Assembly (NCBI GenBank): GCA_015066205.1 | Contig: SVOV01000003.1 | Coordinates: forward strand, 48,461-112,460 | Reading direction: 5' to 3' | From: Oscillospiraceae bacterium | GTDB lineage: Bacteria; Bacillota; Clostridia; Oscillospirales; Acutalibacteraceae | Length of the DNA: 64,000 bases | Shown here: one piece after another, positions 18,404 to 30,399 of the stretch | Numbering within the stretch: the first letter of the stretch is position 1 | Layout of the letters: the number at the start of each line of letters is the position of its first letter | Notes under the pieces: model-generated | The model's database searches: none | Told to the model about the DNA's origin: nothing | What the model saw: only the letters and a program-made list of their open reading frames with translations | Program-made: the position numbers and the translations under genes

Positions 18404-18430
18404 TTAGCACTCTCATAGTGCGAGTGCTAA
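18404..18430. promoter_or_regulatory. CIRCE operator (HrcA binding site)
   Basis: TTAGCACTC-N9-GAGTGCTAA, exact consensus inverted repeat, upstream of hrcA. Confidence 0.97.
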
Positions 18431-18666: not shown

Positions 18667-20454
18667 ATGACTGACATTTCTAACCTTTGTATGGTATGTC
18701 TTAACAAAAAAGACGAAAACGGCAGCTGTCCCGTTTGCAAGCAGTCTGAAGATATTATTCAGGAATCCCCGCTTCTTCCCTTAAAAAGTATACTTGCTCA
18801 AAGATATATAATTGCAAAAGCCCATAAAAGAAACTGCGAGGGTATTACATATTCCGCATATGATATGAAGCTTGAAAAAAGCGTTTCAATAAGAGAATTT
18901 TTTCCGGAGGAGTTCTGCAAAAGAGATCCCGACCTTATTACTGTCATTCCGAAGCTGAACAAAGAAACCGTATACGACCAGTATCTCAATTCCTTTATTT
19001 CACTCTGGAATAAGCTTCAGCGCCTCAAGGGCATAACGGCTCTCATAACCGTGACGGAGGTATTTAAGGTAAATGCCACCGCATATGCTGTTTATGACGA
19101 ATCGGAAAGAGTTACACTCAGAGATTATCTTCTCAGCACCAAGGAGGGCTTTATTCCCTGGGAAAAAGCAAGAATGCTGTTTATGCCCGTGCTTTCTACC
19201 ATCGGAACTCTTCACACCTCGGGAGTTTTTCACAGAGGTATAAATCCCGATGCATTCATTTTTTCAAAGGACGGAAAATTAAAGCTTACGGATTTTTGCA
19301 TTGAGCCCGCACGCTCTCCTTCCGCTGCCTTTGATGCACAGATATTTGACGGCTTTGCTCCCCTTGAGCAGTACAATCCCTCCATGAGAACGAATGCCGC
19401 TTCGGATATTTATTCTTTCTGTGCAGTGCTTTACCGTTCACTTATCGGCTCTACCCCCATCGATGCAAAAACAAGAGCCGAAAATGACAGAATGATGATC
19501 CCCGCAAAATTTGCGGAACAGCTCCCTGCTTATGTGATAAATGCTCTTATCAACGGAATGGCAGTTGAGCCTGAAGACAGAACAAACAATATAGAGCAGC
19601 TTCGAAGCGACCTTTCCGCCTCTCCGAGAGCTGTCGGTGCCTCCGCTCCGAAATACTCTCCCGCAGAAAAGAAGAATACGACCGTTATTCAGAAGCCCTC
19701 ATATGTTGAGCCTTTATCCGAGGAGAAAAACACTCCTCAGCAAAAAAGGCCTGCGGCAGTCAGAACCGATCCCGCTCCCGTAAAAAAAGATTCGGGCAAA
19801 AAGAATGCTCTTATTGCATTTTTATGTGTGATCCTTGCAATTCTTCTCTTGAGCATCGGTTTTCTTGCCTATAAGCTGATCGACCTTACAGGACTTCCCT
19901 CTTCTGAGGAAAAGACTACCGTTCAGGAATCCGCAATAGTACAGGTTCCGAGCTTCATCGGCGGTAATATATCCGCTATAATCACAAATCCGCAGTACAC
20001 GGATTATTTCACATTCAAAACCGAACAGCAGAGCAGTCCCACCGTTATGGCGGGAATCGTAATAAATCAGAGCATCCCCGCCAATGCCCAGGCAACAAAG
20101 GGCGATACTATCATCCTTTATGTAAGCTCGGGTCCCCGCTCCTTCCAGCTTCAGGATGTTACGGGATGGACATATGAGCAGGCTTCGGAAACTCTTCGTT
20201 CACAGGGACTCGTATGTCAGCAGTCGCAGATACATAACGACGGAACTCATGTCGGCGGTGTTATTGCAGAAACTATCCCTGCGGCAGGAAGCATTGTAAG
20301 AGAAGGCGACACGATTACGATCGTTACCTATACCTCTCTCGAAGAGGATGAGGGCCAGACAGGTGAAAATATGGGCGGAAACTCAGTTGAAGAGTTTTTA
20401 CAGGGTATGGAAACAACAGCTCCCGCTCCTGAGAATCTCAGTCCCGTACAATAA
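18667..20454 (+). CDS. Zinc ribbon - kinase-like (probable pseudokinase) - TM - two PASTA repeats
   Basis: CMVCLNKKDENGSCPVC; kinase-like segment RYIIAKAHKRNCEGITYSAYDMKLEKSVSIREFFPEEF...HRGINPDAFIF...KLTDFCIEP; TM ALIAFLCVILAILLLSIGFLAYKLI; PASTA repeats VQVPSFIGGN.. and FQLQDVTGWTYEQASETLRSQGL... Confidence 0.88.
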   Translation: MTDISNLCMVCLNKKDENGSCPVCKQSEDIIQESPLLPLKSILAQRYIIAKAHKRNCEGITYSAYDMKLEKSVSIREFFPEEFCKRDPDLITVIPKLNKETVYDQYLNSFISLWNKLQRLKGITALITVTEVFKVNATAYAVYDESERVTLRDYLLSTKEGFIPWEKARMLFMPVLSTIGTLHTSGVFHRGINPDAFIFSKDGKLKLTDFCIEPARSPSAAFDAQIFDGFAPLEQYNPSMRTNAASDIYSFCAVLYRSLIGSTPIDAKTRAENDRMMIPAKFAEQLPAYVINALINGMAVEPEDRTNNIEQLRSDLSASPRAVGASAPKYSPAEKKNTTVIQKPSYVEPLSEEKNTPQQKRPAAVRTDPAPVKKDSGKKNALIAFLCVILAILLLSIGFLAYKLIDLTGLPSSEEKTTVQESAIVQVPSFIGGNISAIITNPQYTDYFTFKTEQQSSPTVMAGIVINQSIPANAQATKGDTIILYVSSGPRSFQLQDVTGWTYEQASETLRSQGLVCQQSQIHNDGTHVGGVIAETIPAAGSIVREGDTITIVTYTSLEEDEGQTGENMGGNSVEEFLQGMETTAPAPENLSPVQ

Positions 20455-27642: not shown

Positions 27643-30399
27643 ATGAAAAACAAACTCGTTTATCTGTTTTTCGCGGTAACAGCTCTTCTTTGCTGCTTTA
27701 CCGTCTGTGCTTTTGCAGGCTTTGATCTCAGCAAAGATGAAATTCTTGAGCTTGAGCCTGTTGAAAATCTTGAAGAATGCTATGCATCGGGCGATGTTGA
27801 CGGCAACGGCGCCATCAAGGCAGATGATGCAAGAACAATTCTCAGAGTATCTGTAAATCTCGAGAATATCGACACCTCGTCCTTTATGAAGGCTGATGTT
27901 GACGGTGACGGTAAGATCACTGCAAAGGACGCAAGAACTGCTCTTCGTTATGCTGTCGGTCTTGATAAGCTCCCCCAGCACGATGTTGAGGAAATTGTTA
28001 TCATCCCCGCAACCTGCGAAACAGAGGGACTTACCGTAAAGATCTGCAAGACTTGCTTAAAGATCTATGCTAAAATAACTGTTCCCGCAAAGGAAGACGG
28101 CCATGTTACAACAGGACGCTGGGTAACAGTTAAGGCTCCCAATTGCTCCGAAGAGGGTCTCGGACAGCTCAAGTGCGTTTTCTGCTCTGCAGTTGTCAAG
28201 GAAGAGGTTCTTCCCAAATTAAAGACTCACAGCGGTGACTGGCTCTATCCCGACGGCAAGAGCTGTACTGATGTTCATGTAAGAAAAAGAAGCTGCTCAG
28301 TATGCGGTATTGAAGAAACAGAAGAAATCAATCCCCGCGGCGGCTGTCAGTATAAGTGGATAATCATTAAGGACAAGACCTGTACCGAAAACGGCTACCG
28401 TATTGAAAAATGCGATTACTGCGGCAAGGAAAGAGATCTCAATAATGCTGACAATATCATAAAGGCAACGGGTCACCTCTATGAAAGAGAGCTTCTTATC
28501 AAGGAAGCAACCTGCACAGAACCCGGCATAATTGCAGACCAGTGTGTAAACTGTCAGGAAACAATAAACACAAGAGAGCTTGTTCCCACAGGACATAATT
28601 TTGATAACATTCATTATAAGGTTACAAAGGAGCCCACCTGTTCAGCTGAAGGCAGTGCCGATGTATTCTGTATTGAATGTTCAACAAGTGCAACCCTTAC
28701 TCTTCCTAAGAAAGAACATACTCTCACAGAAGAATGGACCGTAACAAAAGAACCCACCTGCACCGAAGCCGGTGAAAAAACAGGTGTATGCAAGTACTGC
28801 GAAGAGGTTACTGAGGAAATCGCACCCACAGGTCATACAGTTACAAAGTGGGAAAACACAAAGCCCGCCACCTGTGCTGAAGCAGGACTTAGAACCGGCT
28901 ATTGCGAGGCCTGCGGAGAAAGCACTGTTACAGAGGAGATAGCTCCCCTGCCTCACACCTTTGACAAGAGATATATCTATGTTGCAAGCGGTGTAGCCTG
29001 CAAGGGTGTATGGGAAGGCTATTACAAATGTACAGTATGCGGCGCTCACTCTGCCACATTTGAGAATGACCAGAAGGAATGCTCTTCAAGCTATTACAAA
29101 AATACAGCTGTAGTAACAGAAGCAACCTGTACAACAAAAAAGACAATTGTTGACATCTGTGACTACTGTAAGGAAAACATTGAAGGAACCGAAAGAGTAT
29201 CAGGAACCGCTCTCGGACATTCATACTCAAACGATTGGAATGTTCTTGTTGCGGCAACCTGTACAGAGAACGGCAAAGCCGAGGTCAAGTGTGTAAGATG
29301 CGATGCTACAACCGTTAAGGTTATTGAAAAGCTCGGTCATACTCCCGGTGAATGGAACACAGTAACAGCTCCCACCTGCACAGAAGACGGCAGTGCAAAA
29401 GCAAAATGTATCAGATGCGATGTTGAAGCCACAAAGACTCTCGAAAAGCTGGGTCACAAGCTCGGTGAAAAGGAAGTATTTGTTGCTCCTACCTGTACTG
29501 AAGACGGAACAGGCGGAAAAACTTGCGTAAGATGCGATTATAAGGAAACAGAAATTCTTGAAAAGCTCGGCCACGAGCTGGGCGAATGGACCGAAACCAA
29601 GGCTCCTACCTGTACTGAAGACGGTGCTCTTACAGCAAAGTGCACAAGATGCGACCTTACAGAAACCAAGACTGTTGAAAAGCTCGGTCACGAGCCCGGT
29701 GAATGGATCGAAACAAAGGCTCCCACCTGTACCGAAGACGGTATTCTTACTTCAAAATGCTCAAGATGCGATGACTTTGATACAAAGACTGTAGCAAAGC
29801 TCGGCCACGAACTCGGTGAATGGACCGAAACAAAAGCTCCCTCTTGCTCCGAGGAAGGTGAGCTTACAGCAGAGTGTTCAAGATGCGGAGGAACTGAAAC
29901 AAAGCCTGTTGAAAAGCTTCCCCATACCCCCGGCGAATGGGTGGTTATTTCCGAAGCAACCTGTCTTACAGGTGAAATCAGCGCAAAGATCTGCACAGTA
30001 TGTAACGAAACAGTCGAAACAAAGACAGGCGCAACCGCTGCTCATACAGAAAAGAAGGCAGTTATTGCCGGCTCAGAATATACCGATGAAAACGGTAACC
30101 TCTGCATCAGATATAATGTGATCTGCTCCGTATGTCAGAGCGTCATTACAGAAAATCTCTCAACAGAAAAGGTTATTGTTGAAGGCAACGGCATCACTGT
30201 TACATTTGCTGACGGCTGTAGCACAGCAGCAGGCGGTGAAGTGACATTCACTATCAACAGCGACAGCTCACACTTCGTTATGATAACCTACGGTAATGAA
30301 GGTGCAACCGATATCCTTACAGAAAACGGCGGCAGCTACTCATTCACTATCCCCGAAGATCTCACTGATTCAGAAACCGTAACAATTATCATCCTGTAA
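27643..30399 (+). CDS. Secreted protein: signal peptide, N-terminal dockerin-like domain, then many CxxC-containing PTCTEDG...LGH repeats
   Basis: SGDVDGNGAIKADDARTILRVSVNLE...KADVDGDGKITAKDARTALRYAVGLDKL dockerin type I pair; repeats such as KAPTCTEDGALTAKCTRCDLTETKTVEKLGHEPGEWIETKAPTCTEDG. Confidence 0.9.
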   Translation: MKNKLVYLFFAVTALLCCFTVCAFAGFDLSKDEILELEPVENLEECYASGDVDGNGAIKADDARTILRVSVNLENIDTSSFMKADVDGDGKITAKDARTALRYAVGLDKLPQHDVEEIVIIPATCETEGLTVKICKTCLKIYAKITVPAKEDGHVTTGRWVTVKAPNCSEEGLGQLKCVFCSAVVKEEVLPKLKTHSGDWLYPDGKSCTDVHVRKRSCSVCGIEETEEINPRGGCQYKWIIIKDKTCTENGYRIEKCDYCGKERDLNNADNIIKATGHLYERELLIKEATCTEPGIIADQCVNCQETINTRELVPTGHNFDNIHYKVTKEPTCSAEGSADVFCIECSTSATLTLPKKEHTLTEEWTVTKEPTCTEAGEKTGVCKYCEEVTEEIAPTGHTVTKWENTKPATCAEAGLRTGYCEACGESTVTEEIAPLPHTFDKRYIYVASGVACKGVWEGYYKCTVCGAHSATFENDQKECSSSYYKNTAVVTEATCTTKKTIVDICDYCKENIEGTERVSGTALGHSYSNDWNVLVAATCTENGKAEVKCVRCDATTVKVIEKLGHTPGEWNTVTAPTCTEDGSAKAKCIRCDVEATKTLEKLGHKLGEKEVFVAPTCTEDGTGGKTCVRCDYKETEILEKLGHELGEWTETKAPTCTEDGALTAKCTRCDLTETKTVEKLGHEPGEWIETKAPTCTEDGILTSKCSRCDDFDTKTVAKLGHELGEWTETKAPSCSEEGELTAECSRCGGTETKPVEKLPHTPGEWVVISEATCLTGEISAKICTVCNETVETKTGATAAHTEKKAVIAGSEYTDENGNLCIRYNVICSVCQSVITENLSTEKVIVEGNGITVTFADGCSTAAGGEVTFTINSDSSHFVMITYGNEGATDILTENGGSYSFTIPEDLTDSETVTIIIL

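Follow-up and report, generated by a model that had tools for sequence, protein, structure and literature searches.

The gene under study lies at positions 18667..20454 (+ strand) of the window, by which we mean the whole 64,000-nucleotide stretch of DNA that was analysed, and encodes a protein of 595 amino acids with an ATG start. It is flanked on one side by a hrcA-grpE-dnaK-dnaJ cluster in divergent orientation and on the other by cysE-cysS. One CIRCE operator (18404-18430) was located between hrcA (- strand) and the gene (+ strand), with 0 mismatches and no occurrence in 100 shuffled sequences; it adjoins a near-consensus hrcA promoter, and the pairing of the gene with the hrcA region is not conserved. 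The hrcA-grpE-dnaK-dnaJ cluster, cysE and cysS were considered as operon partners and discarded, since this arrangement is common to the second species of the genus and is absent from other genera. Elsewhere in the window, positions 27643-30399 encode a protein of 918 amino acids, predicted to be secreted, whose N-terminal repeats are dockerin-like and which also has Cys-rich repeats; Tandem Repeats Finder detected a 117-base unit in about three copies within that gene (29485-29918).

A sequence-only reading had described the product as a PASTA-domain pseudokinase with an N-terminal zinc ribbon, and all the parts of this layout were recovered, each on the + strand. The N-terminus, predicted to be cytoplasmic, carries the zinc ribbon C8-x2-C11 ... 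C21-x2-C24 (18688..18738), recognised by the conservation of its cysteines, and is followed by a kinase-like domain at residues 40-322 (18784..19632). The Pfam Pkinase model matched residues 92-278 with 46.8 bits (cut-off 31.7), and the PpkA structure 5hnv was matched by profile with 128.7 bits. The Pkinase match spans both lobes, and both PpkA and PknB chains were matched by profile, which places the domain, by sequence, within the Hanks-type fold. The segment of 21 residues at positions 381-401 (19807..19869) is hydrophobic (mean Kyte-Doolittle value of 3.0), as expected for a transmembrane helix, and a Lys-rich stretch stands just before it. Two PASTA repeats follow, at about residues 426-489 (19942..20133) and at residues 495-555 (20149..20331), which together reached 69.1 bits with Pfam. 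The Lys-rich stretch and the hydrophobic segment indicate that the zinc ribbon and the kinase fold face the inside of the cell and the PASTA repeats the outside, the same order as in PrkC. Hence, the claim that scaffold, transmembrane helix and PASTA repeats are intact is well supported by Pfam and hydrophobicity. An AlphaFold2 model, computed on a two-sequence input (the window protein and its orthologue L034), gave a pLDDT of 30.5, too low for a usable structure.

The catalytic motifs are degraded throughout this fold. The four stretches quoted in the sequence-only reading (KRNCEGITY, VSIREFFP, HRGINPDAF and DFCIEP) were all found. The glycine loop (18826..18843), GxGGFG in active kinases, reads KRNCEG in the window protein and xxNG(E/D)G in the family when the motifs are aligned; the beta-3 Lys is replaced by Arg76 (18892..18894); the catalytic Asp of HRD is lost, residues 189-191 reading HRG (19231..19239); and the DFG motif is DFC at residues 209-211 (19291..19299). 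The loss of the DFG Gly (C211) stands, and the Asp (D209) is kept, unlike in most homologues, where the motif is GFS or GFC. One further loss, absent from the earlier list, is that of the alpha-C Glu, replaced by Leu113 (19003..19005; FIQEARLL in PpkA aligned with FleLwrkl). The Lys-Glu pair of active kinases is thus represented by R76 and L113, the HRD Asp and the loop Asn by G191 and A196 (HRGINPDAF), and the active form of DFG is missing. With R76, L113, G191, A196, C211 and a degraded glycine loop, the protein retains no recognisable phosphotransfer centre.

A survey of orthologues for the same substitutions was performed with loci gathered from searches of the family, order and class and by direct retrieval; open reading frames were aligned to the profile and the motif columns were read. 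The pseudokinase set comprises 138 full-length proteins with zinc ribbon and PASTA repeats from 112 genera, a large but not exhaustive sampling; 120 belong to the window's family (f1), 17 to a sister family (f26) and one to the family f23. Neither the HRD Asp (Gly in 116, Ala in 17) nor the alpha-C Glu was present in any of the 138 proteins. The beta-3 Lys was missing in 122 and kept in 16, with Arg in 109 and His in nine, and the DFG Asp was missing in 118 and kept in 20, among them the window's genus, as DFC (position 209 is Gly in 94; position 211 is Ser, Cys or Ala in 111). All five residues counted were missing in 75/138. The first Gly of the loop was lost in 97% of the proteins, and an acid (Glu or Asp) had taken the place of the Phe of GGFG in 94%. 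In the nearest zinc-ribbon kinases (n=41), by comparison, Lys, alpha-C Glu, HRD Asp, loop Asn and DFG Asp were present in 41/41 and the DFG Gly in 38/41. An HMM alignment with the solved kinase domain of PpkA (5hnv) supports the same motif columns. The four zinc-ribbon Cys occur in all 138 pseudokinases and in the 41 active paralogues, where they were required for entry into the set, and they were also invariant in a 29-row alignment in which they were no entry criterion. Judged by these alignments, the protein falls within the general definition of a bacterial pseudokinase, in which at least one of beta-3 Lys, HRD Asp and DFG Asp is lost and the loss is shared by the orthologues.

One question raised by these counts is whether the protein could still be an unconventional active enzyme, with the nucleotide bound via Arg76 and the acid at position 58 of the glycine loop in place of the Lys/Glu pair, and with phosphorylation or some other transfer as the outcome. 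Residue 76 is kept positive (R/K/H) in 134/138 pseudokinases and the gained acid at residue 58 (E/D) in 130/138, which indicates that the pocket is under selection. Active or predicted ATP-binding degenerate kinases do exist, such as SelO, SidJ and DYD (PMC12599244), and 41 phosphoproteins of Clostridioides difficile depend in vivo on the degenerate kinase CD2148 (PMC9674922). Against this stand the absence of the HRD Asp and the alpha-C Glu from the whole set and of the DFG Asp from 118 members; no conserved relocated Lys was found in the glycine loop or beta-2 among the 138 proteins, and the catalytic loop shows no newly conserved alternative acid. We therefore consider catalysis of this kind unlikely, and the conserved positive residue 76 and acid 58 may instead reflect residual nucleotide binding.

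The losses of the catalytic motifs could also be those of a pseudogene or of a recently inactivated kinase devoid of function. The reading frame is open, however, the same losses occur in 112 genera and in one old clade, the zinc-ribbon Cys are invariant, and a Nei-Gojobori dN/dS of ~0.1 was estimated over the kinase-like domain, a rough figure with dS near saturation. The second species of the genus, a Clostridia MAG from water deer cecum, carries an intact gene 61% identical to that of the window; between the two species the kinase-like domain is 71% identical, the PASTA region 57% and the juxtamembrane linker 37%. From the dN/dS value and the higher identity of the kinase-like domain than of the PASTA region, we conclude that purifying selection acts on the dead kinase fold. 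The intact gene in this second, independent MAG of the genus, the dN/dS and the recurrence of the losses across 112 genera indicate that neither chance nor an assembly error is responsible. With the HRD Asp absent from all 138 orthologues of a single clade, the recent mutation that the earlier reading had named as a possible refutation is ruled out by the survey, and a functionless relic is extremely improbable.

The gene was read and confirmed in 121 of the 150 sampled f1 genomes, and none of these genomes had more than one copy among the loci read. Several of the further f1 genomes gave strong matches, and some, mostly small (1.0-1.4 Mb), gave weak matches only. Full-length matches were obtained in most of the 41 genomes of the sister family f26. 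In a maximum-likelihood tree of 103 kinase domains, built by a quick search, the sampled pseudokinases form one clade (SH-aLRT 99), which splits into an f1 part and a part rich in f26 and is separate from the PrkC clade; its support was 100 once the motif columns had been taken out along with two long rows. Degenerate PASTA proteins were found only in f1, in f26 and once in f23, which belongs to the same order; in the rest of the class and phylum, active zinc-ribbon kinases were the only high-scoring profile matches. The single clade and this restricted distribution argue for one old loss of catalysis in the f1/f26 ancestor followed by vertical inheritance as the most likely origin. A second small group of degenerate zinc-ribbon proteins (L096 and L203), with the motifs HGNIRPENI and LTG(L/F), is present in other families beside tandem active paralogues, and it was the nearest neighbour of the pseudokinase clade in the first tree (support 94).

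The active Clostridia zinc-ribbon kinases (GxGGFGITY / VAIKEYxP / HRDISPDNI / DFGAAR) share the zinc ribbon and are the nearest relatives of the kinase domain; they differ in that their catalytic residues are intact (41/41), in that they often form tandem arrays and in their variable C-terminal parts. Arrays of this kind, in which the active zinc-ribbon Ser/Thr kinases differ in their C-terminal parts, were seen at L090, L096, L097 and L103. Catalytically intact zinc-ribbon kinases with PASTA-like repeats occur at L090, L091, L092 and L195 (several in L195), so that the architecture of the pseudokinase also exists in live form. The closest solved kinase domain by profile, that of PpkA (5hnv), has its active motifs intact, and the matched chain has neither zinc ribbon nor PASTA repeats.

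The protein resembles PrkC, PknB, StkP and IreK (model NF033483) in its Hanks-type fold inside the cell, single transmembrane helix and outer PASTA repeats, and the model match extends over residues 136-560 with the same order of kinase fold, transmembrane helix and PASTA. It differs from them in its N-terminal zinc ribbon, in the lost phosphotransfer features and in its separate clade, and it scored 157.4 bits against the equivalog cut-off of 450, whereas the PrkC of genome G074 reached 560.8. It shares the change of beta-3 Lys to Arg with the DYD and ActPs2 pseudokinases, and DYD, found in Firmicutes, also lacks the alpha-C Glu (PMC12599244); the motif is nevertheless DFC in the window protein and GFS or GFC in most homologues, which sets it apart from the DYD family. 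ActPs2 has HRN, a DFG deletion and a 250-amino-acid insert in the activation loop (PMC12599244), while the window protein has HRG, no DFG deletion and no 250-residue insert. The pseudokinase domain of MviN (ActPs3) of M. tuberculosis has links with peptidoglycan synthesis and with a PASTA kinase (PMC12599244); it forms part of the MviN transmembrane protein, has VALT/Y-- motifs and relays through the FHA protein FhaA, in contrast to the single transmembrane helix and PASTA repeats found here. A search for FHA proteins in the window genome (85% complete) found none, which makes a relay of the MviN-FhaA type unlikely. By these features, the protein lies outside the PrkC equivalog, DYD, ActPs2 and ActPs3.

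A closer parallel is offered by CD2148 of C. difficile, a membrane-anchored degenerate Hanks kinase, encoded monocistronically, that lacks the catalytic D and N; it does not autophosphorylate and was phosphorylated in vitro only when PrkC was present (PMC9674922). Compared by that paper's description, both proteins are membrane-anchored degenerate kinases beside PrkC, and CD2148 has no PASTA repeats, so that it may be taken as a partial precedent for a pseudokinase linked to PrkC.

The sequence-only reading had also suggested a search for a second, active PASTA kinase elsewhere in the genome. The window genome (2.7 Mb, 83 contigs, 85% complete) does contain a PrkC (G000:C24; loci L001 and L204), within the order def-fmt-(Zn peptidase)-rsmB-rlmN-stp-prkC-rsgA, and a PrkC-type match to NF033483 was obtained in every sampled member of the family (150/150 f1 genomes), above the strict cut-off in 134. 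The only PF00069 matches in the window genome were PrkC, the pseudokinase gene and one sub-threshold phosphotransferase-like match (L003). PASTA repeats were limited to PrkC (four), the pseudokinase (two) and one further protein; the latter, outside the window, has two repeats (G000:C43:47563-47919) in a 754-amino-acid frame and is possibly a penicillin-binding protein.

Linkage between the two genes was seen in one lineage. The pair of neighbours in G074 was not taken as evidence on its own, since one such pair in ~130 genomes is near chance expectation by our estimate; hence, the whole genus (g75, at least 30 species) was checked. The pseudokinase gene was found 3' of prkC, on the same strand and within ~8 kb, in 19/30 species, usually in the order stp-prkC-rsgA-thiN-pseudokinase (thiN was assigned from sequence), and the pseudokinases of this genus are ~50-70% identical to that of G074. 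The count comes from 19 species of one genus, is shared partly by descent, and other neighbours persist there too; it supports a link to PASTA-kinase signalling in that lineage only. No conserved neighbours of the pseudokinase gene were found outside g75, and it is unlinked to prkC in the other f1 genomes compared. As the juxtamembrane linker is poorly conserved, no conserved PrkC phosphosite was visible in it between the two species of the genus.

A gene that stands alone, with neighbours that are not conserved and, in most genomes, no linkage to prkC, is what would be expected of a stand-alone wall-binding scaffold, of which EssB/YukC, a structural pseudokinase, is a model. In such a scaffold the PASTA repeats would localise to nascent peptidoglycan, and the pseudokinase domain and zinc ribbon would recruit division or wall-synthesis proteins independently of PrkC. 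The conserved C-lobe stretches GYAAIEQY...DIYAF and ND..M.P..FAEQ.PAYVINALINALQ resemble a binding surface and agree with this explanation. The stp-prkC linkage in g75 and the co-occurrence with PrkC favour a PrkC connection instead, although PrkC is near-universal in these genomes anyway, and we regard the scaffold as a real but minority alternative, with perhaps one chance in a few.

Our preferred reading, held at a probability of roughly 0.55, is a non-catalytic PASTA receptor that would work with PrkC in the control of the cell envelope. By analogy to the PrkC-type kinases, its outer PASTA repeats would probably bind peptidoglycan or muropeptides of the cell wall, the single transmembrane helix would carry the wall signal inward, and the pseudokinase domain and zinc ribbon would together form a docking or allosteric surface, with no phosphate transfer. 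The most likely client would be PrkC, the one canonical Hanks kinase that the window genome was found to contain; the pseudokinase would either (a) tune PrkC activity through contacts of the PASTA repeats or the N-lobe, or (b) deliver the substrates of PrkC to the septum or the wall. The role of cell-wall sensor or allosteric partner, put forward in the earlier reading, is one that we infer from the domain make-up, the co-occurrence and the linkage in one genus; wall binding, PrkC as partner and the direction of the effect are likewise presumptive for the pseudokinase. A more specific and more tentative form of the idea is a receptor/pseudoreceptor pair, in which an ancient, lineage-wide PASTA pseudokinase would dimerise with PrkC and control it allosterically, by the same logic as HER3 with HER2, and the zinc ribbon would be an added interaction module.

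In a 2025 review, seven families of bacterial pseudokinases are distinguished, none described with PASTA repeats, and their functions are said to be largely unknown; pseudokinases such as MviN and EssB/YukC are able to act as wall regulators and scaffolds (PMC12599244). No description of PASTA repeats combined with a pseudokinase or zinc ribbon was found in the open literature, a provisional statement whose scope leaves aside subscription papers and the primary 42-kinase-family classification.

Nearly all members of two related families carry one copy of the gene beside a working cell-wall kinase, which indicates that selection maintains the dead form, probably as a regulator. Wall synthesis and beta-lactam tolerance are controlled by PASTA kinases, whose mode of activation is still debated. 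A dead PASTA kinase beside PrkC in nearly all the members of large families would constitute a natural separation of sensing from catalysis, and since the window genome yielded just two proteins that are clearly of the Hanks kinase type, a live one and a dead one, the question of the partner is unusually simple in this organism.
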